Position numbers and translations under genes: made by a program. A DNA stretch of 64,000 nt from Leeuwenhoekiella blandensis MED217 (GTDB lineage: Bacteria; Bacteroidota; Bacteroidia; Flavobacteriales; Flavobacteriaceae). The first letter of the stretch is position 1. The number at the start of each line of letters is the position of its first letter. Where the stretch lies: positions 2,734,461 through 2,798,460 of the forward strand of contig NZ_CH672395.1 of NCBI RefSeq assembly GCF_000152985.1. Direction: 5' to 3'. The notes under the pieces were generated by a model. The model saw only the letters and a program-made list of their open reading frames with translations. It was not told where the DNA came from and did not search any database. Shown one piece after another: positions 21,439 to 57,030 of this stretch.

Positions 21439-22656
21439 ATGTATACCATAAAGCTAGACCGCATAAGACATAAAAATGCCTCGCAAATAGCTGTGCATTT
21501 TGACTATGATGTTTCAGTAAAAGAGCATGTGAAGGCCTTTAAAGACACGCATTGGAGTCAAACCCATAGGTGTTTTTATTTTGAGGACAGCAGCAGTAAG
21601 CTTCGTCAATTTTTTAAACACATTCAGCAGAAATCCTGGTATCTGGATTATGAAGCCTTACGAAAAGCTCCAAAGCAACCTCAAGTCGTGCAAACTTCTA
21701 CAGAGCGTTTACTCCGTAATACCACAGACTTAAAGCAGCAGTATCAACAACTGCCACAAAGCCACAAGGCTCTTTTAAAGCGCTATGTTCACTATTTAAA
21801 AGGACAACGTTTAAGTGAACAAACCCTAAAAGTGTATGGTAATTTTACAGTTCAGTTTTTGAACCACTACAAAAACAAGCCTATAGAAAACCTGAACGTG
21901 CGTGCGTTTAGAGCCTTTATAGAAGAGGTTATTGCCTTTAGAAGGTATAGCATAAGCAGTCACAGGCAATGCATAAGTGCGCTGAAACATCTAAGTATAC
22001 TCCTAGAATTTCCGAAAGCTCATTTTGATGGTTTACAGCGCCCTAAGAAAGACAAAAAACTGCCCGTCGTATTGAGCCGGAAAGAGGTGATCGATTTATT
22101 GCGTGCTACACCAAATCTAAAACATCGCACTATTTTGGCACTGCTGTATAGCGCAGGTTTGCGTATAGGCGAACTACTGGCATTACGCTGTGATGCTATA
22201 GATCTTGACCGCATGCAAGTGCACATCAAAAAAGGAAAAGGCCGCAAAGACCGTACGGTAAAACTTGCACAGGCCGTAGTACCCCTTTTACTGAATTATA
22301 TGGAAAGTTATGCACCTACCCACTATTTGATCCCTGGACGTGATGGGCAAGGCTACAGTGCAGGCGCTATACGCACCTTTTTGAAAAAAAGCTGTACACG
22401 TGCAGGGATTAAAAAAGCGGTAACACCTCATACATTACGCCACAGTTATGCTACGCATATGATGGATCACGGGGTAGCCTTGCGGCATATCCAAGAACTT
22501 CTAGGACACGCCAAACCCGAAACTACGATGATCTATACACACGTCTCGCAACAAGATTTGTTTGAAGTAGCAAACCCCCTAGATGTCACGATATCGCAAA
22601 TAACAAAAAACGCAAAAGAGCAACAAAAAGTGTTGATATCCCGACAAGGACTCTGA
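21439..22656 (+). CDS. Tyrosine recombinase at the head of the cassette array
   Basis: 405 residues. An N-terminal extension of about 90 residues (TIKLDRIRHKNASQIAVHFDYD...) precedes a core-binding SAM-like domain (about 105-195) and a catalytic domain with R242 in SAGLRIGELL, the lysine of KKGKGRKDR, H331 and R334 in HTLRHSYATH, H357 in LLGHAKPETT and Y366 in MIYTHVS. The tail FEVANPLD resembles the SPLD end of IntI/XerC-type enzymes. About 60 residues separate KGRKDR from HTLRH, too few for the extra helix insertion of classical integron integrases. It is transcribed toward the array and ends about 30 bases before the first cassette, so it is the best candidate for the enzyme that inserts cassettes. 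Confidence 0.85.
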   Translation: MYTIKLDRIRHKNASQIAVHFDYDVSVKEHVKAFKDTHWSQTHRCFYFEDSSSKLRQFFKHIQQKSWYLDYEALRKAPKQPQVVQTSTERLLRNTTDLKQQYQQLPQSHKALLKRYVHYLKGQRLSEQTLKVYGNFTVQFLNHYKNKPIENLNVRAFRAFIEEVIAFRRYSISSHRQCISALKHLSILLEFPKAHFDGLQRPKKDKKLPVVLSRKEVIDLLRATPNLKHRTILALLYSAGLRIGELLALRCDAIDLDRMQVHIKKGKGRKDRTVKLAQAVVPLLLNYMESYAPTHYLIPGRDGQGYSAGAIRTFLKKSCTRAGIKKAVTPHTLRHSYATHMMDHGVALRHIQELLGHAKPETTMIYTHVSQQDLFEVANPLDVTISQITKNAKEQQKVLISRQGL

Positions 22657-22690
22657 TAATCAACTATATTTGTGTTGATATAACAAGTTA
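22630..22690 (+). other. Candidate attI-like insertion site with promoter element
   Basis: Between the recombinase 3' end and the first cassette. GTGTTGATAT occurs twice as a direct repeat (22630-22639, 22672-22681), and ATCAAC, the inverse of its core, lies between (22659-22664). Direct repeats of this sort are recombinase-binding sites in known attI sites. The crossover point would be AACAAG|TTAGCACC at 22687/22688. TATATTTG at 22665-22672 matches the Bacteroidota -7 element exactly and could drive the first cassette; no -33 element is evident at normal spacing. Function is inferred from position and repeats. Confidence 0.55.
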
Positions 22691-22728
22691 GCACCAATTT
22701 GAAAAAAAACTCTGACAGACAAAGAAAT

Positions 22729-23823
22729 ATGTCGAACGAATATTTAGAATACTATCCTAACAAACTTGCAAAGGACTTTAAATTTGAAAAGCATTTGAAA
22801 AATGAAAAGAGATTTAAAGAATATTGCAGAGGAAAAGAAGTTCCGTACTATAAAGACGAAGGAAATTGGGGAACGAAACTTGACCTTGGAAATGTACCTG
22901 AAAACGAAGCTGTTAAAAGAGCGTTTCTCTTACAAGAATTTCGCATTTGGAAAGATTGGAAAAACTTGGGAAGAAATATTTTTAGTTTTTCAGAAAACAT
23001 TAGTAAACTTCTTAAAAAAACCGATGTACTTGATATAGATATTTCACTTATAAAATTACCTTATCAAAACTTTTACATTGATTTATCATCTGCCAAAATT
23101 CCATTAGAAGAAAATAGTTCAGAATTTATAGAAGGAGCATTTATAAGAGATGAACACGATGATGGAGATAACGGAGAAACTTTTGAGAGAGCAATAAATA
23201 TTGACTTTGTCAGTAAAGATTATATTGATAAATATTGGATAATAAACAAACACTTGGATTGGGATATGGAAAGAGGTTTCCATTCTTTGCTACTTTTTTT
23301 GGACCGTAAAGACAATTTAACAACAATCGAAGATGCAATTAAATTTGACAAACAGGCATTTGTCGGAGAATATACATTTGACGACAGAGAAGATGATACA
23401 AAAATTGATTTGTATTTAATTCATAAACAATTTGTCGATAGAACTATAAATTTTATTATTAATTGTCTTTTATATCTAACTACAAAAGAAGCTGACATTG
23501 AAGAAAAATATCCTAAAGATTTACCAACCTATTTAAAATCGAAATTAGCAAAAGCTAACACAAAACGAAAAAAAGAAGTTGTTAAAGACGAGATTTACAG
23601 AAACGGATTCACTAAAATCAAATATGTAGGACAAAATATAAAACTGACACATAGCAATAATGGTTCAAATGGAGATGTGGCGACACATTGGAGAAGAGGA
23701 CATTGGAGAAATCAAAAATTCGGACAGAATCTATCCGAATCTAAATTAGTTTGGATTTTACCAACGATTGTCAATAAAGAAAAAGGAGAACCGAAAAAAG
23801 GACATATTTACAAAATTGAGTAG
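22729..23823 (+). CDS. Hypothetical protein with RRGHWR-type C-terminus (cassette 1)
   Basis: 364 residues from ATG 22729; an upstream TTG would add 10. The N-terminal two thirds are charged and helical, and I do not recognise them. The C-terminal end (HWRRGHWRNQKFGQNLSESKLVWILPT) matches a motif I know from mobile-element proteins related to the AcrVA2 group, (R)RGHWRxQxxG...KxxWIxP. That resemblance does not prove anti-CRISPR activity. It is the only gene of the first cassette; the stop is 8 bases before the cassette's R'' sequence. Confidence 0.65.
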   Translation: MSNEYLEYYPNKLAKDFKFEKHLKNEKRFKEYCRGKEVPYYKDEGNWGTKLDLGNVPENEAVKRAFLLQEFRIWKDWKNLGRNIFSFSENISKLLKKTDVLDIDISLIKLPYQNFYIDLSSAKIPLEENSSEFIEGAFIRDEHDDGDNGETFERAINIDFVSKDYIDKYWIINKHLDWDMERGFHSLLLFLDRKDNLTTIEDAIKFDKQAFVGEYTFDDREDDTKIDLYLIHKQFVDRTINFIINCLLYLTTKEADIEEKYPKDLPTYLKSKLAKANTKRKKEVVKDEIYRNGFTKIKYVGQNIKLTHSNNGSNGDVATHWRRGHWRNQKFGQNLSESKLVWILPTIVNKEKGEPKKGHIYKIE

Positions 23824-23830
23824 AAAAAAC

Positions 23831-24016
23831 TGGTGCTAACAACGTGTATAGCTCATTGCTAATCAGTTTCTTAAATCAAAGTTAAGGCATATTTCGAAAG
23901 TCGCCAAATTTTTAAATTTGACGATTTCCAAAAAGTAAAATTTAAAAATCTGGCTTGTGGCAACCGAAAATAATCGCTAATTTGCACGCAACGAGCCATA
24001 CACAAAACCGTTAGGC
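23831..24016 (+). repeat. attC-like site 1
   Basis: R'' TGGTGCTAAC (23831-23840) is the reverse complement of the start of cassette 1. Arms: GTGTATAGCTCATTGC (23844) pairs with GCAACGAGCCATACAC (23988-24003). The right end AACCGTTAGGC gives the crossover G at 24010. About 186 bases, the longest of the set. Confidence 0.8.
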
Positions 24017-24096
24017 AACAATAAACGGCGGATTTTCTCACTCTGCCGGTTAATTTAAAAGCCAAGCAGTACGCTTTATAATTGTCGCTACCGCTC

Positions 24097-24477
24097 CTAA
24101 TTTTTATCTATTAAACTCATATCAAAAACACCCTTTTTAATTTTATGAAGTTTAAAAAAATGCTTAGAGTTCATATCTAAATCAAATAAATCAGAAAACG
24201 TTACACCGAGGGATTTATTTGTAAATCTTGAGTAACTTCGTTTACTTCCTGCTAAATGGTAATTATCATCTTCTTTTTCTTCAATCTCAATTCTTACTTT
24301 TTTATCTTTTTTTGATAAATAGAACATTAAACCTTGCTTTTCTTTATCTATTTTTAGAAGATTCATTGTCGGTTCATAAAAACAAAACTCTCCTAAAGGC
24401 AAGCCTAATCCTATTGTTGGATGGATATGCTTATTACCTCCTTTTCGCTCTTTTCTTATTGCTACAAAATCACTCAT
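24097..24477 (-). CDS. Hypothetical protein, minus-strand cassette 2 gene B
   Basis: 126 residues, basic at the start (SDFVAIRKERKGGNKHIHPTIGLGLPLGEFCFYEP), no recognised domain. Its ATG overlaps the stop region of the small upstream gene (24470-24643), giving a coupled pair. The pair runs against the direction of the array, which would place it beyond the reach of a common upstream promoter, so it needs its own. Two small coupled genes in a reversed cassette resemble toxin-antitoxin cassettes of integrons, but no family supports that here. Confidence 0.6.
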   Translation of the reverse strand: MSDFVAIRKERKGGNKHIHPTIGLGLPLGEFCFYEPTMNLLKIDKEKQGLMFYLSKKDKKVRIEIEEKEDDNYHLAGSKRSYSRFTNKSLGVTFSDLFDLDMNSKHFFKLHKIKKGVFDMSLIDKN

Positions 24478-24643
24478 TTTCTTTTTTATTTATAATTAAA
24501 CATTCGTCTAAAGTTGCCTTTCCTCTTGATTTATCTACTAAATCAACACAAGCTAAAGTTGTTTTTAAAATTTGTTCACTTAACTGAATATTATTAATTC
24601 TTAAAGCACAATCAACGTAATCTAATCTTTCTTTTTTTTTCAT
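24470..24643 (-). CDS. Small hypothetical protein (57 aa), cassette 2 gene A
   Basis: 57 residues starting KKKERLDYVDCALRIN and ending ECLIINKKENE, with the stop overlapping the start of the next gene by 8 bases. It is predicted from the codon-like frame, the ATG and the tight overlap with its partner. No domain recognised. It might be the regulatory or antitoxin partner of the 126-aa protein, which is a guess from gene order. Confidence 0.5.
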   Translation of the reverse strand: MKKKERLDYVDCALRINNIQLSEQILKTTLACVDLVDKSRGKATLDECLIINKKENE

Positions 24644-24705
24644 TTTATAAACATTTGTTCTTACTCATTCTCTAATTTGGCTTTTTCAAAGCCACGCCGT
24701 TTACA

Positions 24706-24841
24706 GTAGCCAACAACGGTTATAAAAAATGCGGGTTGTGAGCTTATCCGATAAGCTTAAGTTTCTCTTACTTTGCCTTTGCAACGGCGGAAACAATCCG
24801 TTAGCCAACCCCGCCCATTTCATAACCAAATCCGTTACCTG
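24706..24841 (+). repeat. attC-like site 2
   Basis: Left end GTAGCCAACAACGG; arms GGTTATAAAAAATG (24719) pair with CATTTCATAACC (24818-24829); right end TCCGTTACCTGC with crossover G at 24834. The left box matches the start of cassette 2 imperfectly: GTTTAxxGTxGCC(T)AAC is shared with one gap and a few mismatches. The cassette end has drifted or was exchanged. Confidence 0.65.
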
Positions 24842-24965
24842 CAAGCTGAAAAAAAGCCACCGCTCGGTCAAGCACATTTGTTTTTTTCCGACACTCATAG
24901 CCAACGCTAAAAAAACAAAAGAGCTTGCCCTTCCCCACCACCACCCGAAAAAAATATTTGATAAC

Positions 24966-24999
24966 TTGATATAAAATTCGCAAATCATTCTTACATTTG
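24966..24999 (+). promoter_or_regulatory. Promoter of the restriction-modification cassette
   Basis: TTG at 24966 and TACATTTG at 24992-24999 fit the Bacteroidota -33/-7 pattern (TTG, about 23 bases, TAnnTTTG). The -7 box lies 25 bases before the regulator start. A multi-gene cassette carrying its own promoter would not depend on array-head transcription. Confidence 0.5.
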
Positions 25000-25023
25000 C
25001 TAAAAATAGGTCAAATCAATAAA

Positions 25024-25347
25024 ATGGCAAGTTTCGGAAATTTTATAAAGACAGAAAGAGAAAAACGAGAATGGACTCAAACTGAATTCGGTGCAAAAAT
25101 CGGAATCAACACTAGTGCAATCAGTCGAATAGAAAACGGAAGTCAAAAATTTAGTAAATCTAAACTAAAGGAACTTTCAGAATTATTTGAAATTCAATTA
25201 CAACAAGTAACTGACTTATTTTTCGCAGACAAATTTGCTAGAGAGGCTTTTAAATATAAATGCTCGGAATCAGTATTTTCTGTTGCAGAAGACACTGCAA
25301 ATTATTATCGCAACACAAATGTTAAACAAGGAAAATTAGAACTATGA
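25024..25347 (+). CDS. XRE-family regulator of the restriction-modification locus
   Basis: 107 residues from ATG 25024. The helix-turn-helix domain fills residues 5-65: FIKTEREKREWTQTEFGAKIGINTSAISRIENGSQKFSKSKLKELSELFEI. It is the first gene of a four-gene unit and overlaps the methyltransferase by four bases (ATGA), as controller (C) proteins of type II restriction systems often do. It probably delays endonuclease expression after transfer. A binding site could not be assigned with confidence. Confidence 0.8.
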   Translation: MASFGNFIKTEREKREWTQTEFGAKIGINTSAISRIENGSQKFSKSKLKELSELFEIQLQQVTDLFFADKFAREAFKYKCSESVFSVAEDTANYYRNTNVKQGKLEL

Positions 25348-26342
25348 GCAGAAGTTTAAAATATATTGACCTGTTCTCTGGTGCTGGAGGCTTTTCGCTT
25401 GGATTTGACAATAAAGGTTTTCAAAATGTCTTTTCAGTAGATATTGAACCTAGTTTTTGTGAAACATATAATCATAATTTCCCAAGTCATAATTTAATAC
25501 ATAAGGATATTTGTGATGTTAAAGATGCCGAATTGAAATACTTAAAAGAATATGATGAAATTGATGTTGTTATAGGTGGTCCACCTTGTCAAGGATTTAG
25601 TATCGCTGGAAATATCGGAAGAAAATTTATTGATGACCCAAGAAACAAACTATTCAAAGAATTTGTTAGGGTAGTTAAAGTTGTTGAGCCTACATACTTT
25701 GTTATGGAAAATGTTGCTCGATTATACAACCATAATAAAGGAAATACTAGAAAAGAAATAATAAATGATTTTGAAAATCTAGGTTATAAAGTTGAATGTA
25801 AAATTCTAAATTCCGCAGACTATGGAGTTCCTCAAGTCAGAAAACGTGTAATCTTCATTGGAACTAAAAACAGTCAAAAAATACTTTTTCCTAAAAAGGA
25901 AGTTGATAAATATGTAACTGTAAAAGAGGCATTATCTTCTTATCCAAAATTGAAGTCTGGTCAAGAATCAAAAATTCCAAATCATATAGCAATGTCTCAT
26001 TCAGAACAAATGTTGCATAAAATGAGCTTTGTATCAGATGGTGGAGATAGAAATGAAATCCCTGAACAAATTAGACCGAAATCAGGTGATGTTAGAAAAT
26101 ATATAAAATATTCAAGTGATAAACCTTCTGTAACAGTTACAGGAGATATGAGAAAAATATTTCATTATGAGCAGAACAGAGCATTGACTGTTCGTGAATT
26201 AGCAAAATTGCAATCTTTCCCAGATGATTTTGAATTTAAAGGCTCAAAAATTTCTCAACAACAACAAGTAGGGAATTCTGTTCCACCAAGAATGGCGGAA
26301 GCTATAGCAAGTGTAATTATTAAAATGAGTGAAAATGTTTAA
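25344..26342 (+). CDS. DNA (cytosine-5) methyltransferase
   Basis: 332 residues with the ordered motifs of C5-methyltransferases: motif I DLFSGAGGFSLGFDNKGF (residues 9-26), motif IV GGPPCQGFSIAG with catalytic C82, motif VI ENV, motif VIII QVRKRVIFIGT, motif IX region RALTVRELAKLQSFPDDF and motif X QVGNSVPPRMAEAI. The target-recognition region between VIII and IX is short. It overlaps the adenine methyltransferase by 14 bases. It presumably protects host DNA from the HNH endonuclease at the end of the unit; recognition site unknown. Confidence 0.94.
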   Translation: MSRSLKYIDLFSGAGGFSLGFDNKGFQNVFSVDIEPSFCETYNHNFPSHNLIHKDICDVKDAELKYLKEYDEIDVVIGGPPCQGFSIAGNIGRKFIDDPRNKLFKEFVRVVKVVEPTYFVMENVARLYNHNKGNTRKEIINDFENLGYKVECKILNSADYGVPQVRKRVIFIGTKNSQKILFPKKEVDKYVTVKEALSSYPKLKSGQESKIPNHIAMSHSEQMLHKMSFVSDGGDRNEIPEQIRPKSGDVRKYIKYSSDKPSVTVTGDMRKIFHYEQNRALTVRELAKLQSFPDDFEFKGSKISQQQQVGNSVPPRMAEAIASVIIKMSENV

Positions 26343-27384
26343 ATATCCTAAAGTCAATTACATAGGAAATAAAGAAAAGATTGCAAAGTGGATATGCGAC
26401 CAATTTCCAACGGATGCAGAAACACTTTTTGACGCTTTTTCTGGAGGTTGTTCATTAAGCTATGAAGCAAAATGTAGAGGTTTAGAAATTTACACAAATG
26501 ATATTCTAAAAATCAATTATCACATTGCTAATGCATTGGTAAAAAACAATAGTACTCTACTTGACAAAAACGATATAGAAATAATTTTTAAAGGAGAACC
26601 TTTTGAAGGGTTTATGTTTAAAAATTATTCAGAAGTCTATTTTTTTCCACAAGAATGCAAAGAACTTGATTTGTATAGACAAAACATTGAACTACTTAAA
26701 TCAGAGGAAAAAAAATCATTAGCATTTGCTTTAATGAGAAGAGCTATGATTCGTAAAATGCCTTACTCTAGATTTACATTAAATTGGGATAAAATAGTCC
26801 AATTAAGAGATGAGGAATACAGCTATAAAAAATACAAACGAAGAAGAGCTTATCACAACCAATCATTTAAACATCATTTTCTTCAAAATTTAAATGAGTA
26901 CAATCAAGCAGTATTCAATAATGATAAAAATAATATTGCTTACAATGATGATATTTTCAATTTGTTAGAAACTGTAAAAGCAGACATTATTTATTTAGAC
27001 CCACCATATACAGGAACAATGAATAATTATTTTGGTTTTTATGGTTTGGTAGACGATTTTATAACATCAGAGGTAACAAAACCATTTGAAAACAACTTTG
27101 TAAATAAAAATTCTGCAATTGAGCTTTTTGATAAATTGTTTTCTAAACTTAATAATTTTAAATATTGGTATTTAAGCTACAATAACTCTTCTTTTCCAAG
27201 CAAGAATGAACTACTTTATCTGTTGGGTAAATATTCAGACAATGTTGAAGTAATTGAGCGTAAACATAACTATCAAATTACTGGTAAAAACAAAAAAGAA
27301 AAGAATAAAGAATTTTTATTCATTGTGAAAAATGAAAATTATAAAGAAACTATTAAAGAAAATTATGCCACAGCAGAACTATGA
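26329..27384 (+). CDS. D12-class (Dam-like) adenine-N6 DNA methyltransferase
   Basis: 351 residues. The N-terminal YPKVNYIGNKEKIAKWI and the AdoMet segment LFDAFSGGCSLSYEAK correspond to motifs X and I of the D12/MboIIA group. Catalytic motif IV is DPPY in DIIYLDPPYTGTMNNYFGFYG. It overlaps genes on both sides. A second methyltransferase of different chemistry in one locus suggests an asymmetric recognition sequence with each strand modified differently, or two specificities; this is inference. Confidence 0.88.
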   Translation: MKMFKYPKVNYIGNKEKIAKWICDQFPTDAETLFDAFSGGCSLSYEAKCRGLEIYTNDILKINYHIANALVKNNSTLLDKNDIEIIFKGEPFEGFMFKNYSEVYFFPQECKELDLYRQNIELLKSEEKKSLAFALMRRAMIRKMPYSRFTLNWDKIVQLRDEEYSYKKYKRRRAYHNQSFKHHFLQNLNEYNQAVFNNDKNNIAYNDDIFNLLETVKADIIYLDPPYTGTMNNYFGFYGLVDDFITSEVTKPFENNFVNKNSAIELFDKLFSKLNNFKYWYLSYNNSSFPSKNELLYLLGKYSDNVEVIERKHNYQITGKNKKEKNKEFLFIVKNENYKETIKENYATAEL

Positions 27385-28435
27385 AGAGTATTGGAAACTG
27401 ACCAATGCCTTTACTGATTATAATGGTACAAAGTTTTTAGATACATTGGCTGTTTGTATCAATTTTATTGATGTCCATAAAAACGAAGAATATTCTGAAG
27501 AAAAATATTCAAAACTTCAGGACGAGATTCATAAAGTAAATCCTATTAACCATATTTCGATTAGAAAGTCTATAAATCAATTGGTTAAAATGGGATTTAT
27601 TAATTCTTTCCTTGTTTCTTATCATCCACAAGCTAAAGAGTATGTTGAAGCTCGAACGAATAAGAAAAGAGAAACACTTTTATCCAAAATTGTTTACTCA
27701 AATTCAAGTTTCAACAGAGCAGTAAATAATGAATCTTCAATAAAACAAATCAATTTCCTAATTCAAACACTAATTGAAAAAGGTAAATTATCTAAAGAAG
27801 AAATAATAGCCTTAATGCTTGTTGATATTGAAGCTTATAAAAAACCATTTATAACTGAAATTGAACTTTCAGAATATGTTAAAGAAGCTAAAGAAATTGG
27901 TTTTCTGGAAAGGAAATATAATCAAATTGGCTATTTGTATAACCTTCTCGGAAAATTAGATGATTTAGTTTTTGTTAAGGAAGATTTATATTTTAAAGAA
28001 GATGCTGAACAGATTTTTGGAGAAGATTTAAAAGCAATTACAAAAAGAAGAGACCCATATTTACATAGATTATATAAAAACCAATTACAAGAGGAATGTG
28101 AAGAAATTTATGGTAATCCTATGTGTGTTTTAGAACATCTTTCTTATCCTGTTTTAATTGCTAGTCATATCAAACCTTTTATTGACTCTGATGAAAATGA
28201 AGCTTATGACCCAAATAACGGATTGTTATTAAGCAGAACAATTGATTCGTTATTTGACTTAAAATACATATCGTTTACAGATGAAGGAACTATGATTTTC
28301 TCAAATAGAATATCAGATGATGTAAAGGAGTTTTGGAAAAATTATAAACTCGAAGAAAATATATTAAACGAAAAGAGAAAAACATATTTGGCTTATCACA
28401 GAAATCTAATGACAGAAATTGATGCCCGAGCTTAA
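27365..28435 (+). CDS. HNH-type restriction endonuclease
   Basis: 356 residues from ATG 27365 (an upstream ATG at 27332 overlaps the previous gene by 53 bases). The C-terminal domain is HNH_2-like: CEEIYGNPMCVLEHLSYPVLIASHIKPFIDS, then DPNNGLLLSRTIDSLFDLKYISF, with the ASHIKP...N-GLLLS-D-LFD pattern of restriction endonucleases. The N-terminal part is unassigned and may recognise DNA. It is the last gene of the cassette, with the stop about 100 bases before the attC. Together with the two methyltransferases it forms a type II-like system. Confidence 0.85.
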   Translation: MPQQNYEEYWKLTNAFTDYNGTKFLDTLAVCINFIDVHKNEEYSEEKYSKLQDEIHKVNPINHISIRKSINQLVKMGFINSFLVSYHPQAKEYVEARTNKKRETLLSKIVYSNSSFNRAVNNESSIKQINFLIQTLIEKGKLSKEEIIALMLVDIEAYKKPFITEIELSEYVKEAKEIGFLERKYNQIGYLYNLLGKLDDLVFVKEDLYFKEDAEQIFGEDLKAITKRRDPYLHRLYKNQLQEECEEIYGNPMCVLEHLSYPVLIASHIKPFIDSDENEAYDPNNGLLLSRTIDSLFDLKYISFTDEGTMIFSNRISDDVKEFWKNYKLEENILNEKRKTYLAYHRNLMTEIDARA

Positions 28436-28539
28436 AGCCATACACATTTGCAATTCGCTCCAGCCAACACGCAAGCCGAAAATTGCAAAAGAGTATGTCT
28501 TTGCCAACGCTGAAAACCAAGCAGAACGGAAGAAAGCCA

Positions 28540-28673
28540 GCAGGTAACAATGTATAAAAATAATAGCGGTTTTATCGCTAAAATGAAAGTAAGTAAATAT
28601 AAAAAGGGTCTGTGTTTAACCGAAAAGTTAGTGCCTGTAAACCCGCTACTATTCTTATACTAGACCGTTAGCC
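28540..28673 (+). repeat. attC-like site 3
   Basis: R'' GCAGGTAAC (28540-28548) is the reverse complement of the cassette 3 start TTACCTGC at 24835. Arms: TGTATAAAAATAATAGCGG pairs with CCGCTACTATTCTTATAC. The right end is TAGACCGTTAGCC, crossover G at 28667. The 105 bases before it resemble the 3' end of cassette 11. Confidence 0.85.
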
Positions 28674-28698
28674 ACAATACGAAACCAAAAAATGAACA

Positions 28699-29271: not shown

Positions 29272-29275
29272 CGTA

Positions 29276-30091: not shown

Positions 30092-30099
30092 AAAAGTAC

Positions 30100-47150: not shown

Positions 47151-47161
47151 AAATAAATCTT

Positions 47162-47512: not shown

Positions 47513-47525
47513 GGAAACTAAAGTC

Positions 47526-47560: not shown

Positions 47561-47566
47561 TCAAAC

Positions 47567-47590: not shown

Positions 47591-47599
47591 ATTGTTCTA

Positions 47600-47827: not shown

Positions 47828-47881
47828 TTAGCTTTTAAATGGACTGAAAATACAGTACTTAATTTAAAAAAAGATATCAAA

Positions 47882-48511: not shown

Positions 48512-48571
48512 AATGATCAGCATTTTCTTCGTGCGGAAAATGAAATAAACATAATCTAAATTATATACAAA

Positions 48572-49180: not shown

Positions 49181-49232
49181 AAATAATAACCCATATTTAT
49201 TAAGCACCACATAAAAACAAATCATTTTTAAT

Positions 49233-50966
49233 ATGAAGAATTTATTTAAAAAGAAAAACGAGTTATCTCAAAAAACAGAAACTGTTTCATTACAGATAGA
49301 AGGAATGACCTGTAGTGGCTGTTCATTACATATCGAAAAGGATATCAATAAAAAAGATGGTATTCTAATCAGTTCTGTGAACCACGAAACTGGTAAAGGA
49401 GAATTTACTTTTGATACTGCCAAGTTGAATAAAGAGGAATTGATTAACGCTGTAAATAGCATTGGTAAGTATACGGTTGTTAAAGGCAATGAAAAAGAGG
49501 ATTGTTGTGATTCAATTTCGGATAGCACGACAGATAAAGCGTCCAACAAAGGAAAAAATCAATTCGATTTAATCGTAATTGGAGGTGGTTCTGCTGCATT
49601 TTCAGCAGCCATAAAAGCTGAAAGTTTAGGACTCACAACACTAATGGTTAATGGTGGATTAGATTTTGGTGGCACTTGTGTTAATGTTGGCTGTGTACCT
49701 TCCAAAAATTTAATCCGTGCGGCTGAAACGGCTTACCATACAACACATTCTAATTTTGCAGGAATAAAACCAAAAGGTGCTGACATTGATTTTGCTCAAA
49801 TAATAAAAGACAAAAAAGCATTGGTTGCAGCCCTGCAACAGCAAAAGTATATGGATGTTGTGAGTGATTTTGAAAACTTAACGATGCTAAAAGGATGGGC
49901 AGAATTTGTAAATAACAACACCATTATTGTTGATGGTAAAGACACATACACTGCAACAAACGTTGTTATAGCAACAGGTGCAACCACGAATATTCCAAAT
50001 ATTGAAGGATTAAATGAAGTTGGGTATTTAACTAATGTGTCCTTATTCGATTTGGAAGAAAAACCCAAAAGCTTGACCATAATGGGCGCAGGTTATATCG
50101 GATTGGAAATGGCAATGGCATATAATCGTTTAGGAGTAAAAGTACGTATCATAGAATTTACCGATAGGCCTTTACGAAGTCAAACCGAAGACATTACTGA
50201 TGTTTTAGTTGAACAAATGAAAAGTGAAGGCATTGAAATTCTTCCAAATTTTAGAGCTTTTAAATTTGAAAAAGAGGGCAACGATACTATTATTCATTGT
50301 AACTGTCCTGATGGTTCTACAACACAAATTGTTGAAAAAGGACATATTGTTGTTGCTACAGGAACCACGCCAAACACGTCTAAATTAGGTCTAAAAAAAA
50401 TAGACCTAAAATTATCAGAAAGAGGGCATATTGTGGTTAATGAAAAAATGGAAACTAATATTTCCAATATTTATGCAGCTGGTGATGTCACTAATACACC
50501 GCCATTTGTGTATACAGCAGCAACCGAAGGCAGTACAGCCGTTAATAATGCATTTTCATTATCAAAACAAAGTGTAGATTATGCATCATTACCTTGGGTA
50601 GTATTTACAGACCCTCAAATTGCGGGAGCAGGTATGGATGAAATTGAAGCTGAATCAAGAGGCATTCCTTTTGAAGTATCAAAATTAGATCTAACACATG
50701 TACCAAGAGCTTTAGCTGCACAAGATACCAGAGGATTTATAAAGTTGATTCGTAATACGGAAACGGATAAATTAATTGGAGCAAGAGTAATAGCACCAGA
50801 AGGTGGTGAACTCATCCAACAATTAAGTATGGCTATTAAATTTGGAATTACAGTAAAAGATTTGGCTGAAAGTTTTTATCCATATTTGACACTTGGAGAA
50901 GGAATCAAATTAGCAGCAATTACTTTTGGAAAAGATGTTTCTAAATTGAGTTGTTGTGCAAGTTAA
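49233..50966 (+). CDS. merA: Mercury(II) reductase
   Basis: 577 residues. Flavoprotein that reduces Hg(II) to volatile Hg(0) with NADPH. An N-terminal heavy-metal-associated domain has C27 and C30 (GMTCSGC). The FAD-binding region starts VIGGGSAAFSAAIKAE. The redox-active pair is C149/C154 in GGTCVNVGCVPSK. The NADPH-binding MGAGYIGLEMA follows. The C-terminal C574/C575 (KLSCCAS) delivers Hg to the active site. Last gene of the cassette. Confidence 0.95.
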   Translation: MKNLFKKKNELSQKTETVSLQIEGMTCSGCSLHIEKDINKKDGILISSVNHETGKGEFTFDTAKLNKEELINAVNSIGKYTVVKGNEKEDCCDSISDSTTDKASNKGKNQFDLIVIGGGSAAFSAAIKAESLGLTTLMVNGGLDFGGTCVNVGCVPSKNLIRAAETAYHTTHSNFAGIKPKGADIDFAQIIKDKKALVAALQQQKYMDVVSDFENLTMLKGWAEFVNNNTIIVDGKDTYTATNVVIATGATTNIPNIEGLNEVGYLTNVSLFDLEEKPKSLTIMGAGYIGLEMAMAYNRLGVKVRIIEFTDRPLRSQTEDITDVLVEQMKSEGIEILPNFRAFKFEKEGNDTIIHCNCPDGSTTQIVEKGHIVVATGTTPNTSKLGLKKIDLKLSERGHIVVNEKMETNISNIYAAGDVTNTPPFVYTAATEGSTAVNNAFSLSKQSVDYASLPWVVFTDPQIAGAGMDEIEAESRGIPFEVSKLDLTHVPRALAAQDTRGFIKLIRNTETDKLIGARVIAPEGGELIQQLSMAIKFGITVKDLAESFYPYLTLGEGIKLAAITFGKDVSKLSCCAS

Positions 50967-51111
50967 TCCCTACTAAAAGCCATACACATTTGCAATTCGC
51001 TCAAAGCCACCACGCCATCAAAAATTGCAAAAGAGTATGTCTTGCCAACGCTCAATCCGAACATTTAAGAAAATATCGGAATTGAAAAGCAGAACGGAAT
51101 AAAGCCAGTGG

Positions 51112-51235
51112 GTAACAACGTATATAAAAAATAGCAGTTAAGAGCTAAACTAAAAGTTTGGTTCTTTTCTGCTATCTTTGTTTTCAACTGAAAAATTGCA
51201 CATACAAATCTGCTACTTTTCATATACAAGACCGT
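51112..51235 (+). repeat. attC-like site 11, split by IS1182 copy D
   Basis: R'' GTGGGTAAC matches the cassette 11 start TTACCCACA (45973). Arms: GTATATAAAAAATAGCAG pairs with CTGCTACTTTTCATATAC. Interrupted after ACCGT; resumes CCGTTGTGAG at 52865. Confidence 0.85.
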
Positions 51236-52864
51236 CAGACTGTCTCAAAACTTAGGATATTTCATTTAAAAAGATTAATTTCATGAATGGAATATCAACA
51301 AGGACAACCCCGCGAGCAACTTACCCTGTACACCACCTGTTTAGACGATATGATCCCTCAAGATAATAGTGTTCGTCTGATCGATCAATTTGTAAACCTA
51401 TTAGATCTTCAAGCGCTGGGCTTTCAATCCAAAGCCTCACAGGGCAGACCTCCCTATGATCCTGCAGATTTATTGAAGCTTTACATTTACGGCTATATGA
51501 ACCGGATGCGCTCTTCCCGCATCTTAGAAAAAGAATGCCTGCGCAATATCGAGGTCATCTGGTTGATCAAAAACCTACAGCCTGATCATAATACTATTGC
51601 CCGATTTAGAAAAGACAACCCAAAGGCTATTAAGCGCGTGTTCCGCCAGAGCGTGCAACTCGCACGTAACTTCAACCTGATCGGGGCTACGCTCATCGCC
51701 GGTGATTCTACTAAGCTCAGAGCCCAAAACAGCAAGAAGAATAACTACAACAAAAAGAAGATACAGCGCCATCTGGATTACATTGATAAAAAACTCGAAG
51801 AACATAACCGGGAACTGGCTAATGCTGATGGAGATCACAAAGAAGAAGTACAACAGCAAATACACACCCGTAAAGCTCAACGTGTAAAATACCAGCAGAT
51901 AAAAAACCAACTGGAGCAGGATACCTCTTCTCCCAATCCGCAACTATCGACCTCTGACCCTGACAGCAGACATCAAATTGTACGCGGGACCGTTACCGAA
52001 GTATGCTACACTGCACAAACCACCGTAGATGCTCAAAATAAAATCCTGATCGATTATAAACTCACCAACGCCAATGATAAAAAAGCAATGGGCGGTATGC
52101 TCGCCAGAGCTAAAACCATCTTACGCACAACCCACTTCACCGCCCTTTATGACAAAGGGTATCACACCGGAAGTGAGTTTCATACAGCAGATCATTTAGG
52201 CATTGCTACCTTGGTTGCCATACCTGCTATTGGAAGAAAAAGTCAGGCACCAAACCCCAGATACAACGCAGAGTATTTTAACTATAACTCAGATCCAGAC
52301 ACTTATACCTGTCCGCAGGGACATACACTAACCTCTAACGGGACCCAGTACAAAGCACGTAACTACACTTTTAAACAATACAAAACCAAAGCCTGCAAGA
52401 CCTGTGTGGTGCGGGAGAACTGTACCACTTCAAAAGTCAATGGAAAAGTAATACAGCGCAGTCAGTACACCCAGAACATTCAGGATAATGCCAAACGTAT
52501 TGCTCAAAGCGGTGAACTCTACAAAAGGCGGCAAGCACTAGTTGAGCATCCTTACGGCACCATAAAGCGTCAATGGGGATTTAATCATATCTTGACCAAA
52601 AAAGGAATACAAGCTGCTTCAGCAGATTTAGGTCTTATGCTGCTAGCTTATAATCTTAAAAGACTGTTCAAGCTAAAAGTATCTCTTGAGGCAGCGATAA
52701 AACATAGTTTTTTAAGTGTTTTAAAGCTATTAGAGGGCTTAGAAAGGCTCAAACCTAAAGTATATCACCAAAATACCCAAAACACCTCATATGCAGTTTT
52801 TGTTGGATATCGCATACACTTCAACTACTTTTAAAACATAAAAAGGTAGTTTTGAGACAGACTG
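51236..52864 (+). mobile_element. IS1182-family element, copy D (1629 bp)
   Basis: Same termini; CCGT at 51232-51235 and 52865-52868. Inserted in the R' box of site 11. Confidence 0.93.
51287..52834 (+). CDS. IS1182-family transposase, copy D
   Basis: Intact 515-residue frame, same protein as copies B, C and E. It shares the silent A at the GAAAGG position near the 3' end (about 52743) with copies B and E, whereas copies A and C have GAGAGG. These are two sub-lineages within the array. Confidence 0.93.
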   Translation: MEYQQGQPREQLTLYTTCLDDMIPQDNSVRLIDQFVNLLDLQALGFQSKASQGRPPYDPADLLKLYIYGYMNRMRSSRILEKECLRNIEVIWLIKNLQPDHNTIARFRKDNPKAIKRVFRQSVQLARNFNLIGATLIAGDSTKLRAQNSKKNNYNKKKIQRHLDYIDKKLEEHNRELANADGDHKEEVQQQIHTRKAQRVKYQQIKNQLEQDTSSPNPQLSTSDPDSRHQIVRGTVTEVCYTAQTTVDAQNKILIDYKLTNANDKKAMGGMLARAKTILRTTHFTALYDKGYHTGSEFHTADHLGIATLVAIPAIGRKSQAPNPRYNAEYFNYNSDPDTYTCPQGHTLTSNGTQYKARNYTFKQYKTKACKTCVVRENCTTSKVNGKVIQRSQYTQNIQDNAKRIAQSGELYKRRQALVEHPYGTIKRQWGFNHILTKKGIQAASADLGLMLLAYNLKRLFKLKVSLEAAIKHSFLSVLKLLEGLERLKPKVYHQNTQNTSYAVFVGYRIHFNYF

Positions 52865-52882
52865 CCGTTGTGAGTAATTTAA

Positions 52883-53467
52883 ATGAACATCGAAAACTCA
52901 ATAATATCAGAAATTTTTAAAGAAATCTCTTTTTCAAAAAAAGAAGAAAATCTTATTGAAAATAAACTTAAAAAACTCGATTTAAAAAAAGGAGTTACAA
53001 TATTAAAAGCAGACGATAAAGTCCTCAATCAATATTATGTTTACAATGGTTGTTTAAGAACTTACTTTATTGATAAATCTGGCAAAGAACATACTTTGCA
53101 ATTTGCCATTAATGATTGGTGGATAAGTGATTATACAGCTTTCTTCACAACAACTAAAGCAGTAATGTATATTGAAACTATTGAGGAAGCAACGATATAT
53201 CAAATTTCAAAAAAAAGTATGGAAGATTTATTCATAGAGATTCCACAATTAGAAACTTTTTTTAGAAAAAAAATGGAAAAAGCTTTTGCTAGTTTTCAAA
53301 AGAGGATATTAGCAAATTTGGCCCAGTCTGCTAAAGAAAGATATGTTTCGTTTATCAATACTTACCCAAATATTGAACAGACTGTAAAAAATTACCATAT
53401 AGCTTCTTATCTAGGAATTACTACCGAAACCTTAAGTAGAATTAGAAAAGAAATGTCTCTTAATTGA
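52883..53467 (+). CDS. Crp/Fnr-family regulator (cassette 12, first gene)
   Basis: 194 residues: an N-terminal cNMP-binding-like beta roll (GVTILKADDKVLNQYYVYNGCLRTYFIDKSGKEHTLQFAINDWWISDY) and a C-terminal helix-turn-helix (IASYLGITTETLSRIRKEM). The C-terminal domain is short, as in many Bacteroidota Crp-like proteins. It precedes a DJ-1-family gene with its own promoter-like box, so it may control that gene in response to an unknown small molecule or redox signal. Confidence 0.85.
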   Translation: MNIENSIISEIFKEISFSKKEENLIENKLKKLDLKKGVTILKADDKVLNQYYVYNGCLRTYFIDKSGKEHTLQFAINDWWISDYTAFFTTTKAVMYIETIEEATIYQISKKSMEDLFIEIPQLETFFRKKMEKAFASFQKRILANLAQSAKERYVSFINTYPNIEQTVKNYHIASYLGITTETLSRIRKEMSLN

Positions 53468-53509
53468 TTTTATTGACATACATCAATTTTCAGCACTTAA
53501 TTTGACTAT

Positions 53510-53517
53510 AATTTTGC
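53510..53517 (+). promoter_or_regulatory. -7 promoter element before the DJ-1-family gene
   Basis: TAATTTTG matches TAnnTTTG and lies 25 bases before the ATG at 53543. No clear -33 element is visible, which would be compatible with activator dependence on the adjacent Crp-family protein. Confidence 0.4.
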
Positions 53518-53542
53518 CTTTTTAAAACAAAATAATTCTCAA

Positions 53543-54349
53543 ATGAAAAGAATAACAACAATTATAATCGCTTTGGCTTTATTTTCGTCCTGTGGCAAAA
53601 ACACAAAAGAAACTAATTCTAATGAGCAAAAATTAAGTACTAACACAGAAACAGAAAAAAGTAAAACAATGAAAAAAGTATTATTTGTATTAACAAGTCA
53701 CGAAGATTTAGGAGATACTGGGCTCAAAACTGGTTTTTGGATAGAAGAGTTTGCAGCACCTTATTATTTATTAAAAGATAAAGGAATTGAAATTACTTTA
53801 GCATCTCCAAAAGGAGGACAACCTCCAATTGACCCAAAAAGTGCTTCTCCAGACTTTCAAACCCCAGCAACTGTAAGATTTAATGACGATAAAGAAACCC
53901 AAGAAGTCTTATCTAGAACAATAAGATTGGAAACTGCAAACCAAGCAGATTTTGACGCTGTATTTTATCCTGGTGGACACGGTCCTTTATGGGATTTAGC
54001 TGAAGATAAAAATTCAATTGCTTTAATAGAAGATTTTTATAAAAATAATAAACCAGTTGCTGCTGTTTGCCACGCTCCTGCTATTTTTAAACACACAAAA
54101 AATACAAATGGGACTTATTTGGTTAATGGCAAAAAAGTAACTGGATTTACAAACGGAGAAGAAGAAGCTGTTCAACTAACTTCTATTGTTCCATTTTTAG
54201 TAGAAGATATGCTAAAAAGTAATGGTGGAATTTACTCTAAAAAAGCAGATTGGAATCCTTATGCTGTTGAAGATGGTTTATTAATAACTGGACAAAACCC
54301 TGCCTCTTCTGAATTAGTAGCTGAACTTCTACTTAAGAAAATAAAGTAA
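53543..54349 (+). CDS. DJ-1/PfpI-family (Hsp31-like) lipoprotein
   Basis: 268 residues. Lipoprotein-type signal (KRITTIIIALALFSSCG) and then a DJ-1/PfpI domain: VLFVLTSHEDLGDTGLKTGFWIEEFAAPYYLL, the glutamate in FWIEEFAAP, VFYPGGHGPLWDLAED and the nucleophile cysteine in PVAAVCHAPAIF. The pattern is that of the Hsp31/glyoxalase III branch. It probably detoxifies reactive carbonyls or acts as a chaperone; export is suggested by the signal. An internal ATG at 53669 would give a cytosolic form. Confidence 0.87.
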   Translation: MKRITTIIIALALFSSCGKNTKETNSNEQKLSTNTETEKSKTMKKVLFVLTSHEDLGDTGLKTGFWIEEFAAPYYLLKDKGIEITLASPKGGQPPIDPKSASPDFQTPATVRFNDDKETQEVLSRTIRLETANQADFDAVFYPGGHGPLWDLAEDKNSIALIEDFYKNNKPVAAVCHAPAIFKHTKNTNGTYLVNGKKVTGFTNGEEEAVQLTSIVPFLVEDMLKSNGGIYSKKADWNPYAVEDGLLITGQNPASSELVAELLLKKIK

Positions 54350-54353
54350 AAAC

Positions 54354-54483
54354 TACTCACAACATTGTATAAAAGCAATAGCGGTTTGGGTTATAACTCA
54401 AACCGCTATTTTATTTTAATTAAGTATCTTGCTATTCGAATAGTGGAGCGTTTTAATCCGCTACTGCTCTTATACTAGACCGT
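54354..54483 (+). repeat. attC-like site 12, split by IS1182 copy E
   Basis: R'' TACTCACAAC matches the cassette 12 start TTGTGAGTA (52868). Arms: TTGTATAAAAGCAATAGCGG pairs with CCGCTACTGCTCTTATAC. A nested GGTTTGGGTTATAACTCAAACC hairpin (54391-54412) is present. Interrupted after ACCGT; resumes CCGTTGTGC at 56113. Confidence 0.87.
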
Positions 54484-56112
54484 CAGACTGTCTCAAAACT
54501 TAGGATATTTCATTTAAAAAGATTAATTTCATGAATGGAATATCAACAAGGACAACCCCGCGAGCAACTTACCCTGTACACCACCTGTTTAGACGATATG
54601 ATCCCTCAAGATAATAGTGTTCGTCTGATCGATCAATTTGTAAACCTATTAGATCTTCAAGCGCTGGGCTTTCAATCCAAAGCCTCACAGGGCAGACCTC
54701 CCTATGATCCTGCAGATTTATTGAAGCTTTACATTTACGGCTATATGAACCGGATGCGCTCTTCCCGCATCTTAGAAAAAGAATGCCTGCGCAATATCGA
54801 GGTCATCTGGTTGATCAAAAACCTACAGCCTGATCATAATACTATTGCCCGATTTAGAAAAGACAACCCAAAGGCTATTAAGCGCGTGTTCCGCCAGAGC
54901 GTGCAACTCGCACGTAACTTCAACCTGATCGGGGCTACGCTCATCGCCGGTGATTCTACTAAGCTCAGAGCCCAAAACAGCAAGAAGAATAACTACAACA
55001 AAAAGAAGATACAGCGCCATCTGGATTACATTGATAAAAAACTCGAAGAACATAACCGGGAACTGGCTAATGCTGATGGAGATCACAAAGAAGAAGTACA
55101 ACAGCAAATACACACCCGTAAAGCTCAACGTGTAAAATACCAGCAGATAAAAAACCAACTGGAGCAGGATACCTCTTCTCCCAATCCGCAACTATCGACC
55201 TCTGACCCTGACAGCAGACATCAAATTGTACGCGGGACCGTTACCGAAGTATGCTACACTGCACAAACCACCGTAGATGCTCAAAATAAAATCCTGATCG
55301 ATTATAAACTCACCAACGCCAATGATAAAAAAGCAATGGGCGGTATGCTCGCCAGAGCTAAAACCATCTTACGCACAACCCACTTCACCGCCCTTTATGA
55401 CAAAGGGTATCACACCGGAAGTGAGTTTCATACAGCAGATCATTTAGGCATTGCTACCTTGGTTGCCATACCTGCTATTGGAAGAAAAAGTCAGGCACCA
55501 AACCCCAGATACAACGCAGAGTATTTTAACTATAACTCAGATCCAGACACTTATACCTGTCCGCAGGGACATACACTAACCTCTAACGGGACCCAGTACA
55601 AAGCACGTAACTACACTTTTAAACAATACAAAACCAAAGCCTGCAAGACCTGTGTGGTGCGGGAGAACTGTACCACTTCAAAAGTCAATGGAAAAGTAAT
55701 ACAGCGCAGTCAGTACACCCAGAACATTCAGGATAATGCCAAACGTATTGCTCAAAGCGGTGAACTCTACAAAAGGCGGCAAGCACTAGTTGAGCATCCT
55801 TACGGCACCATAAAGCGTCAATGGGGATTTAATCATATCTTGACCAAAAAAGGAATACAAGCTGCTTCAGCAGATTTAGGTCTTATGCTGCTAGCTTATA
55901 ATCTTAAAAGACTGTTCAAGCTAAAAGTATCTCTTGAGGCAGCGATAAAACATAGTTTTTTAAGTGTTTTAAAGCTATTAGAGGGCTTAGAAAGGCTCAA
56001 ACCTAAAGTATATCACCAAAATACCCAAAACACCTCATATGCAGTTTTTGTTGGATATCGCATACACTTCAACTACTTTTAAAACATAAAAAGGTAGTTT
56101 TGAGACAGACTG
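54484..56112 (+). mobile_element. IS1182-family element, copy E (1629 bp)
   Basis: Same termini; CCGT at 54480-54483 and 56113-56116. Inserted in the R' box of site 12. Confidence 0.93.
54535..56082 (+). CDS. IS1182-family transposase, copy E
   Basis: Intact 515-residue frame, identical in motifs to copies B-D. The last of five copies in the same orientation as the array. Confidence 0.93.
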   Translation: MEYQQGQPREQLTLYTTCLDDMIPQDNSVRLIDQFVNLLDLQALGFQSKASQGRPPYDPADLLKLYIYGYMNRMRSSRILEKECLRNIEVIWLIKNLQPDHNTIARFRKDNPKAIKRVFRQSVQLARNFNLIGATLIAGDSTKLRAQNSKKNNYNKKKIQRHLDYIDKKLEEHNRELANADGDHKEEVQQQIHTRKAQRVKYQQIKNQLEQDTSSPNPQLSTSDPDSRHQIVRGTVTEVCYTAQTTVDAQNKILIDYKLTNANDKKAMGGMLARAKTILRTTHFTALYDKGYHTGSEFHTADHLGIATLVAIPAIGRKSQAPNPRYNAEYFNYNSDPDTYTCPQGHTLTSNGTQYKARNYTFKQYKTKACKTCVVRENCTTSKVNGKVIQRSQYTQNIQDNAKRIAQSGELYKRRQALVEHPYGTIKRQWGFNHILTKKGIQAASADLGLMLLAYNLKRLFKLKVSLEAAIKHSFLSVLKLLEGLERLKPKVYHQNTQNTSYAVFVGYRIHFNYF

Positions 56113-56147
56113 CCGTTGTGCGTAAGCTGACCAAACCAAGAAACTTA

Positions 56148-56999
56148 ATGATTAATCAAGAAAATATATATCAGCTTTTACAAAAAGAAAATTGGACTGA
56201 ATTAATCGGAATATTCTACCAAAATAAGGATTTAATAAAAAAAGACCTATTACTTCAAACCGCATCGGAAACTACTATTTCTGTTATGGTTCAAAAAGCA
56301 ATGGAATTAGAGACTGATTCAGATTTTGTTGAAAATTTAGGTCAACTGACTTTGTTGAATGCTGGACATTTTATAAAACTAAAACCCGAACAAGACGAAG
56401 CCATTAATGTCGCAATTGCAAATGCAAAAATTGACAACTTATCTCTTGCTTATAATTATGCCAAAAAATATCCTGACAATGAGGTTTCTAAAAGTATAAT
56501 TACTAAATACCATAAAGAGTTTCCGAAAGAAATTAGCAACAGTTCTAAAAATCGAATTCTAACAACTGAAAATACTCTTGACGAAAACGGAATTGATGCT
56601 CGGAAATCAATGTTTAACTCTTATCAGGAAAGTGAGTTTTTTGTAGCTCTAAAAAGAGTTTTTGACACTTACCAAGTTTATCCAAATGTAGCTTTGAGCA
56701 ATGTAATCGAGTATGATTTAATTAAAAACCAACTAAATCAAACTGAACGGAATTTTTTCTTCAAATCGTCTATCGACTTTGCAGTTTTTGAGCCTTTCAA
56801 AAATTATTATCCAATTTATTTTTTCGAACTCGATAGTATTTATCACGACACAAAAGAACAAAAAGAAAAAGATAAAATGAAAGACAAAATTTTGAGTCTC
56901 TCAAATTCAAAACTTTATCGGATTAGAAAACGAGATAAAACTGTTAGTGAAGCGGAATTTGAAGAAATAATACGAGAAATAAGAAAATTAACGGAATGA
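56148..56999 (+). CDS. Hypothetical protein (cassette 13)
   Basis: 283 residues from ATG 56148; the longer open frame begins inside the IS. All-helical appearance (NIYQLLQKENWTELIGIFYQNKDLIKKDLLLQTAS...), with a stretch SSIDFAVFEPFKNYYPIYFFELDSIYHD that could belong to the DUF2726-type nuclease-like group, but I cannot confirm that. No signal peptide. Bounded by TTGTGCGTA (56116) and TACGCACAA (57008), the same box sequence as cassette 9. Confidence 0.6.
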   Translation: MINQENIYQLLQKENWTELIGIFYQNKDLIKKDLLLQTASETTISVMVQKAMELETDSDFVENLGQLTLLNAGHFIKLKPEQDEAINVAIANAKIDNLSLAYNYAKKYPDNEVSKSIITKYHKEFPKEISNSSKNRILTTENTLDENGIDARKSMFNSYQESEFFVALKRVFDTYQVYPNVALSNVIEYDLIKNQLNQTERNFFFKSSIDFAVFEPFKNYYPIYFFELDSIYHDTKEQKEKDKMKDKILSLSNSKLYRIRKRDKTVSEAEFEEIIREIRKLTE

Positions 57000-57007
57000 A
57001 AAAAGCC

Positions 57008-57030
57008 TACGCACAACAACGTATCCTATG
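57008..57030 (+). repeat. attC-like site 13, truncated
   Basis: R'' TACGCACAACAACGTAT is present and then the sequence departs from the pattern (CCTATGAAAAGCC). The palindrome and the CCGTT end are missing. The array was cut here by later rearrangement. Confidence 0.7.

Follow-up and report, generated by a model that had tools for sequence, protein, structure and literature searches.

Can a bacterial chromosome shuffle gene cassettes as an integron does when both its recombinase and its recombination sites depart from those of known integrons? This question is raised by a locus in Leeuwenhoekiella blandensis MED217, contained in a 64,000-nucleotide stretch of contig NZ_CH672395.1 (the window; coordinates given below are positions within it) from a closed genome of 4.24 Mb. 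The locus displays an array of cassettes with hairpin sites, an attI-like motif ahead of the first cassette and, next to that motif, a tyrosine recombinase gene. The recombinase and the sites are linked in other genomes, and cassettes bounded at G|TT are shared between genomes. On the basis of sequence comparisons, it is very probable that the locus represents a chromosomal integron whose cassettes would be captured at attI and released by the adjacent recombinase, an enzyme without the IntI-specific domain. A preliminary description of the array was silent on this recombinase, the most unusual part of the locus:

21439-22656 (+): tyrosine recombinase, 405 residues, Pfam PF00589 and PF13495; predicted XPB-DRD/HARP-like N-terminal, core-binding and catalytic domains; predicted cassette integrase

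The array extends from 22688 to 57017 and is composed of 13 units, in line with the at least 13 claimed from the letters alone, all in one orientation and each starting with TT after a G. The unit starts are the first coordinates in the lines below (ORF, open reading frame; IS, insertion sequence).

22688-24010 (+): cassette c1, 374-residue ORF without a Pfam family; attC 23834-24016
24011-24834 (+): cassette c2, start and end mismatched; attC 24708-24840
24835-28667 (+): cassette c3, type II restriction-modification (C5 and N6 methyltransferases, HNH endonuclease); attC 28542-28673
28668-33081 (+): cassette c4, two ORFs; attC interrupted by IS1182, left part 30103-30229
33082-37439 (+): cassette c5, 454-residue ORF; attC contains IS110 and IS1182
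37440-39378 (+): cassette c6, SH3-domain protein and PD-(D/E)XK protein; attC 39254-39384
39379-39694 (+): cassette c7, no listed ORF of at least 60 residues; attC 39569-39700
39695-41220 (+): cassette c8, no own ORF listed; IS110 within attC
41221-45179 (+): cassette c9, three ORFs; IS1182 (43548-45176) at the attC crossover
45180-45972 (+): cassette c10; attC 45844-45978
45973-52867 (+): cassette c11, mercury resistance, MerA (49233-50966) and neighbors; IS1182 (51236-52864) at the attC crossover
52868-56115 (+): cassette c12; IS1182 (54484-56112) at the attC crossover
56116-57028 (+): cassette c13, DUF2726 protein; attC truncated after AACAACGTATCC, the site having been lost through an insertion

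In 11 of the 13 units, start and end of one and the same unit are reverse complements over 9-10 exact bases, whereas these ends agree with the start of the following unit over only 3-7 nucleotides. The inverted match had been ascribed to every unit; it is in fact longer than described, but it fails in c2 (3 nucleotides matching) and c8 (6 nucleotides). Cassette c2 is perhaps two fused cassettes. One identical private box is carried by both c9 and c13, which we regard as coincidental. The anatomy of the box is GTT plus seven private bases, one fixed mismatch, and three further matched bases (10+1+3 nucleotides). At the mismatch the start has A, and the end has C as read on that strand, or G once reverse-complemented.

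The same boundaries were inspected in 120 cassettes from 23 loci outside the window, 10 of 130 candidate pairs having been dropped because they lacked GTT or AAC (three of the 10 read GTCA, the pattern left by IS1182 insertion). There, too, the match is to the cassette's own end. The agreement at positions 4-10 is.97,.97,.89,.93,.93,.94 and.71, drops to.04 at position 11 (A/G in 104 of the 120 cassettes), returns to.89,.95 and.80 at positions 12-14, and beyond these falls abruptly to.07-.28. The corresponding agreement with the next cassette, calculated for 97 pairs, is.62,.35,.27,.35,.27,.33 and.37 at positions 4-10. At least six of the seven variable bases match in 111 of the 120 own pairs versus 47 of 1226 other pairs from the same locus.

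The consensus for IntI-type cassette starts is GTTRRRY. Only one of the 13 starts in the window and four of the 120 in the relatives fit it, in keeping with the deviation originally noted; as a distinguishing mark the deviation fails, however, given that merely three of 12 starts fit in a canonical IntI array (genome G077, 12 cassettes). Likewise, an inverted match longer than seven bases had been thought distinctive, but the G077 array displays one of about 10 nucleotides; what is absent there is the +1+3 extension. With a finder that requires agreement at positions 4-9, the values at positions 10-14 are.86,.59,.45,.36 and.32 for all 22 canonical rows, two of which (from genome G017) show the present pattern in reverse, and.64,.07,.71,.93 and.71 for two family loci (14 rows). 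Private ends thus seem to be general for integron cassettes, and the 10+1+3 box seems to be special to the present sites.

When the five IS1182 and two IS110 insertions are left out, there are 12 hairpin sites in the window. The palindromes reported earlier as 115-190 bases long are indeed present, but 11 of the 12 span 131-135 nucleotides from R'' to R', and that of c1 spans 183. In the form of a circular cassette, the predicted fold of the bottom strand has an outer stem of 14 bp, followed by an unequal spacer and an inner stem of ∼18 bp. Its stability exceeds that of the top strand in all 12 window sites (means of -30.3 versus -26.0 kcal/mol) and in 92 of 94 sites elsewhere (-28.0 versus -23.5 kcal/mol); for the canonical sites of G077 it does so in 11 of 12 (-28.7 versus -27.2 kcal/mol). 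In an alignment of 150 sites (A5), which was fitted to the model such that the pair counts lean towards it, 93.6% of 3341 pair cells can pair versus 74.4% after shuffling and 25-58% after sliding, and there are 566 compensatory cells versus 171 in the shuffled set. One G.T wobble is near-invariant (145 of 146 rows), and a second occurs in 136 of the 144 rows having letters on both sides. Known attC sites contain two or three extrahelical bases, the first of which has the main role in strand choice (PMC2727003). On the R''-L'' arm of the present sites such bases are practically absent, their columns being filled in 3, 1, 1, 1 and 2 of the 150 sites; an optional T is found on the opposite arm in 36.

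A covariance model, R1, built from the window's 12 sites and hence from this genome's own, matches 34 places in the genome at E≤1, the weakest of them with E 0.7, arranged in four clusters and two singles, and finds no site in 14 other 20-kb samples of the genome. The three clusters outside the array obey the same boundary rule and have no such recombinase beside them, so that, the two singles aside, the hairpins are not strewn about independently of cassette boundaries. Within the genus, R1 finds matches in 13 of 13 genomes at E≤1e-4.

The recombinase gene runs in the direction of the array and ends 31 bp before the first crossover. Its nearest named relative, P0002, is 80% identical and is also from Leeuwenhoekiella, and the residues R242, K267, H331, R334, H357 and Y366 are kept in 69 of 69 aligned relatives. 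The additional domain specific to IntI is considered a defining characteristic of integron integrases (PMC9668308). The protein scores 183 bits against TIGR02249 (cut-off 265) and 211.5 against NF040815 (cut-off 220), and the TIGR02249 cut-off is passed in none of the 13 genus genomes, where the matches break at about 180/239. The additional domain is absent: the stretch from KGRKDR to TPHTLRH is 56-57 residues long in the family rows, 42 short of the 98 residues in 17 canonical IntI rows (two of which are one gene), and is 62-64 residues long in XerC/D. The exceptions are L067, with 61 residues, and L061, which is misaligned. In a phylum sample of 395 genomes, 105 have a match over the TIGR02249 cut-off, one of them from the same class and none from the same family, the share of that class among the 395 not being listed.

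In a tree of 77 rows, the family recombinases and IntI together form a 59-row clade apart from XerC/XerD (100/99), the placement of IntI within it being unresolved; the proteins of the genome's separate XerC/D-like genes fall in another clade. This grouping could be taken to mean that the locus is an ordinary IntI integron that uses the known mechanism, its integrase having simply drifted in sequence or shed the additional domain. Such an explanation would also accommodate the ∼10-nucleotide private match, the bottom-strand preference and the cassette anatomy, all common to the canonical array, as well as the incomplete conservation of the catalytic-domain insertion in the integron-like subgroup (PMC8138268). 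It is nonetheless unlikely: the 12 IntI rows (two identical) constitute a clade of their own (100/100) with no array-heading recombinase among them, the shortened stretch keeps its length apart from the two exceptions above, and the extrahelical bases read by the IntI domain are practically missing from the sites as well. Judged from its sequence, the system appears to work like an integron, yet it has neither the domain that defines IntI nor the extrahelical bases, and it is therefore referred to here as a new and widespread integron variant. The variant could be ancestral, derived by loss, or of independent origin.

By both sequence and Foldseek E-value, the nearest solved structures are XerA-type enzymes, but by template-modeling (TM) score the model is closer to IntI4 (2a3v, 0.55/0.70) than to XerA (0.37/0.53). 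The predicted N-terminal domain has a pLDDT (predicted local distance difference test) of about 90 over residues 1-70 and is closest in structure to XPB damage-recognition domains.

For the attachment site, the private box of the first attC was sought downstream of the recombinase in 26 loci. In the window this led to the following segment:

22628-22687 (+): putative attI, GTTGATATCCCG...TATATTTG....GATATAACAA, with the last base the crossover G; located via the private-box match to the first attC

The box sought lies 31-48 nucleotides after the recombinase match in 17 of the 26 loci and 75-940 nucleotides after it in nine, distances being counted from the end of the protein match, which is the stop codon in the window and possibly short of it elsewhere. 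The box matches are weaker in L122, L123 and L037. Many of the loci have in common the motif GTTATCC(C)GA ... TATATTTG ... GATATAAC nn|GTT; in L120, L124 and L125 there is a palindrome like GGATATAACACAAC-TT-GTTGTGTTATCC, of which L123 contains a variant. The segment TATATTTG, present in the attI of several genera, fits the Bacteroidota -7 motif, TAnnTTTG, and is a candidate element of a Pc promoter that would read into the cassettes. The assignment as attI is suggested by the position beside the recombinase, the shared motif, and the fact that related cassettes adjoin attI or attC depending upon the genome.

Eighty relatives of the enzyme were taken from named genomes, 34 nearest (L036-L069) and 46 more distant (L070-L115). 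The nearest include proteins from Winogradskyella, Bizionia, Xanthomarina, Zunongwangia, Christiangramia, Hanstruepera, Lutibacter, Polaribacter, Algibacter and Marixanthomonas, and from metagenome-assembled genomes labeled Crocinitomicaceae and Bacteroidales. Sequence continues for 700 bp or more after the match in 24 of the 34. In the other 10 the contig ends before that distance is reached, a break that repeat arrays would produce. In these 24, R1 sites are located behind the recombinase in 22 at E≤0.1 and in 19 at E≤1e-5, the better strand always being in the expected orientation, and none is located upstream. For the 46 distant recombinases there are two with a site, L076 having sites on both sides and L070 one upstream. 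Within the genus, arrays lie directly behind whole or partial recombinases of this kind in G001, G002, G005, G006, G008 (two) and G009. A family sample of 149 genomes from 148 genera was searched with R1 at E≤1e-6, at most 22 site candidates being scored per genome, and for the recombinase at E≤1e-70. The covariance search suggested in the preliminary description recovers sites of this type in 130 of the 149 genomes (129 of 148 genera), and the recombinase is found in 93; 88 genomes have both, five the recombinase only, 42 sites only, and 14 neither (Fisher p 0.0008).

Several observations weigh against an integron operated by its adjacent recombinase, as does the lean of the pair counts mentioned above. 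In L045 and L069 the recombinase is followed by long sequence in which no site is detected. In G003, a 79% identical recombinase (L010) has as its sole site a weak match (25 bits) 5 kb behind it, and in G007 there is a recombinase fragment (L014) with its stronger site upstream; these two cases suggest loss of arrays or enzymes inside the genus. The array-heading ORFs L124 and L125 seem to have no N-terminal domain. Folding in array form favors the bottom strand in 85 of 94 sites, fewer than in circle form. In G017, from another class of the same phylum, four sites of the present type (L144, 13503-16174) lie within 10 kb of a canonical IntI, in a mixed neighborhood of both site types and both enzyme types. 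Lastly, 42 of the 130 site-bearing family genomes have no recombinase at E≤1e-70, and six of these, when re-examined, revealed only enzymes of ∼300 residues with E-values from 1e-27 to 1e-44, along with partial matches. We take the ∼300-residue enzymes for probable XerC/XerD proteins. In such genomes either the gene would have been lost and the arrays would be relics, or another enzyme can serve.

The second of these options invites the explanation that cassettes are moved in trans by a different recombinase, for example the host XerC/XerD, and that the neighboring one is incidental. It is extremely improbable: across genera the sites keep their place and orientation relative to the recombinase gene, an attI motif recurs behind that gene, and recombinase and sites are associated in the family sample.

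Evidence for recent movement is provided by cassettes shared between genomes. The 5.1-kb mercury cassette c11, at position 11 in the window, is found behind a different recombinase in G008, the genome of another species. In a blastn comparison the copies are 99.0% identical over bases 1-1849 and 94.8% over bases 1906-5144, with ∼1.5 kb extra within the G008 copy. At the ends displayed, identity sets in at the left crossover and, once the IS is disregarded, persists through the attC as far as the right crossover. Outside these limits the flanks differ: the attC to the left is not the same one (23 of 40 nucleotides alike), nor is the cassette to the right. A relative of c8 in G417, a genome from another genus, is 93% identical over 203 bp, starts at the same G|TT and is positioned directly at attI, whereas c8 in the window follows an attC. 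A third cross-species pair, between G008 and G001, is 94% identical over about 1.35 kb of cassettes measuring 1.9-2.3 kb. Within G008, a 787-bp cassette belongs both to the recombinase-headed array and to a cluster some 185 kb distant; the two copies are the same over 909 bases, from the crossover G through the attC to GTTG, and then diverge, and to the left they share one base. Two more cassette pairs in G008 (680 and 654 bp) are 100% identical across the cassette, the identity stopping inside the following attC. Related genomes thus share single cassettes in different neighborhoods rather than in a fixed order, which supports the integron-like reading of the preliminary description. The shared and duplicated cassettes are the products expected if cassette recombination is site-specific. 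G008 also contains, over two arrays (L116/L119), seven copies of a 236-bp cassette with 93-97% identity.

Could the array instead be a relic, its recent movement due to homologous recombination or IS elements? Seven IS elements reside in the window sites, some genomes have sites without such a recombinase, and one of the 28 similar cassette pairs has a common left flank as well (39 of 40 nucleotides). The other 27 pairs, however, agree at only 13-26 of 40 nucleotides left of the crossover, and the limits of shared cassettes fall at G|TT; one such cassette is preceded by attI in the first genome and by attC in the second. As homologous exchange would leave ragged ends, these sharp ends count against it, and we hold the relic explanation to be very unlikely.

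The seven elements comprise five IS1182 and two IS110, the former including the three copies listed with c9, c11 and c12. The remaining four are:

30230-33078 (+): IS1182 copy 1, in the c4 attC; CCGT on both flanks; interrupted by other transposon genes
34488-35689 (-): IS110-family element, in the AACAA spacer of the c5 attC
35808-37436 (+): IS1182 copy 2, at the crossover of the c5 attC
39900-41101 (-): IS110-family element, in the AACAA spacer of the c8 attC

There are 13 IS1182 right ends in the genome, five in the window (elements at 30230, 35808, 43548, 51236 and 54484) and eight elsewhere. Twelve are followed by CCGTT and a box resembling a cassette start, the 13th by CCGTAGGCACCCATTTG, and CCGT is duplicated at all five window copies. 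Because the right ends adjoin CCGTT and a start-like box, the crossover of these hairpin sites appears to be the target of the element. The element in the AACAA spacer is assigned to IS110, a family that is RNA-guided, by NCBIfam. Relatives of IS1111 that target attC are known (PMC11187229).

Returning to the integron reading, the following mechanism can be envisaged. The bottom strand of each site would fold, and the recombinase would cut at the R' box and join it to attI or to another attC, after which replication would resolve the junction. In a circular cassette the two private boxes would pair as the outer stem. Strand choice could depend upon the conserved G.T wobbles, which are A.C mismatches on the top strand, and upon the unequal central spacer (5 versus 2 nucleotides), and the XPB-DRD/HARP-like domain may help to hold the hairpin. 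We lean towards a broader proposal, namely that a second class of integron is widespread in the Flavobacteriaceae, in which a XerA-like recombinase shuffles hairpin cassettes without I2 or extrahelical bases, the strand being read from the wobbles and the spacer asymmetry. The class would be either an intermediate towards IntI integrons or an independent solution, and would have been overlooked because integrases are searched for by means of the IntI-specific domain.

As in the IntI integrons, among them sedentary chromosomal ones such as the Vibrio superintegron as well as class 1 integrons, the cassettes have one orientation, a 3' hairpin each, a G|TT crossover and a private end match of about 10 nucleotides, attI lies beside the recombinase gene, and the bottom strand is preferred. 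Unlike those systems, the recombinase is without the additional domain and usually has an extra N-terminal one, and the sites have practically no extrahelical bases on the R''-L'' arm and a 10+1+3-nucleotide box. The "reverse" integrases reported for Spirochaetota (PMC9668308) mean that co-orientation of gene and array alone is not new. The simple recombinases near Xer in the integron-like subgroup (PMC8138268) are similar, although the portion of that work available to us names no cassette arrays for members without the insertion. In the terminology of IntegronFinder (PMC9024848), the three additional clusters and some of the relatives' arrays resemble CALINs (attC clusters without an integrase), but the main array has a recombinase and the clusters share its site type. 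XerA and XerC/XerD share the catalytic residues, and XerA-type enzymes are the nearest solved structures, but these proteins serve chromosome dimer resolution (PMC8138268). XerCD integration of the CTXphi type likewise employs a hairpin site without extrahelical bases and a recombinase without I2 (PMC4792948); the phage, however, encodes no recombinase, and no cassette array is described for it in the sections of that paper at hand.

In known integrons the strand is chosen by the extrahelical bases and the I2 helix, a pair described as coevolved and regarded as what enables cassette recombination, and their origin has been termed a chicken-egg paradox, of a kind that functional intermediary forms help to understand (PMC4792948). 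Activity of the present system would mean that cassettes can recombine without the I2 domain or the extrahelical bases, a point that bears on the paradox. Both are absent here while arrays, attI and signs of recent movement are present, so that the paradox would become testable in a natural system. IntegronFinder seeks the IntI-specific domain (PMC9668308), and the integron of Salinibacter is the only complete one that PMC9024848, in the part available, names within the Bacteroidetes proper. If our reading is true, a gene-shuffling platform is present across much of a large phylum and escapes the surveys defined by IntI.

Cargo resembling defense genes is found between 24835 and 39269, namely the c3 restriction-modification set and two PADLOC candidate lookalikes, PDC-M24B in c4 and PDC-S26 in c6. 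Where the array stops there is an insert-rich stretch. At 60487-61829 a protein with an IS91-type zinc-binding transposase domain adjoins a 280-residue tyrosine recombinase, which is the genome's closest other recombinase to the 405-residue enzyme. Beyond the array coordinates originally noted lies one more feature:

61977-62094 (+): attC remnant without R'', then a further cassette start, TTGTGCACAATATGC, at 62095

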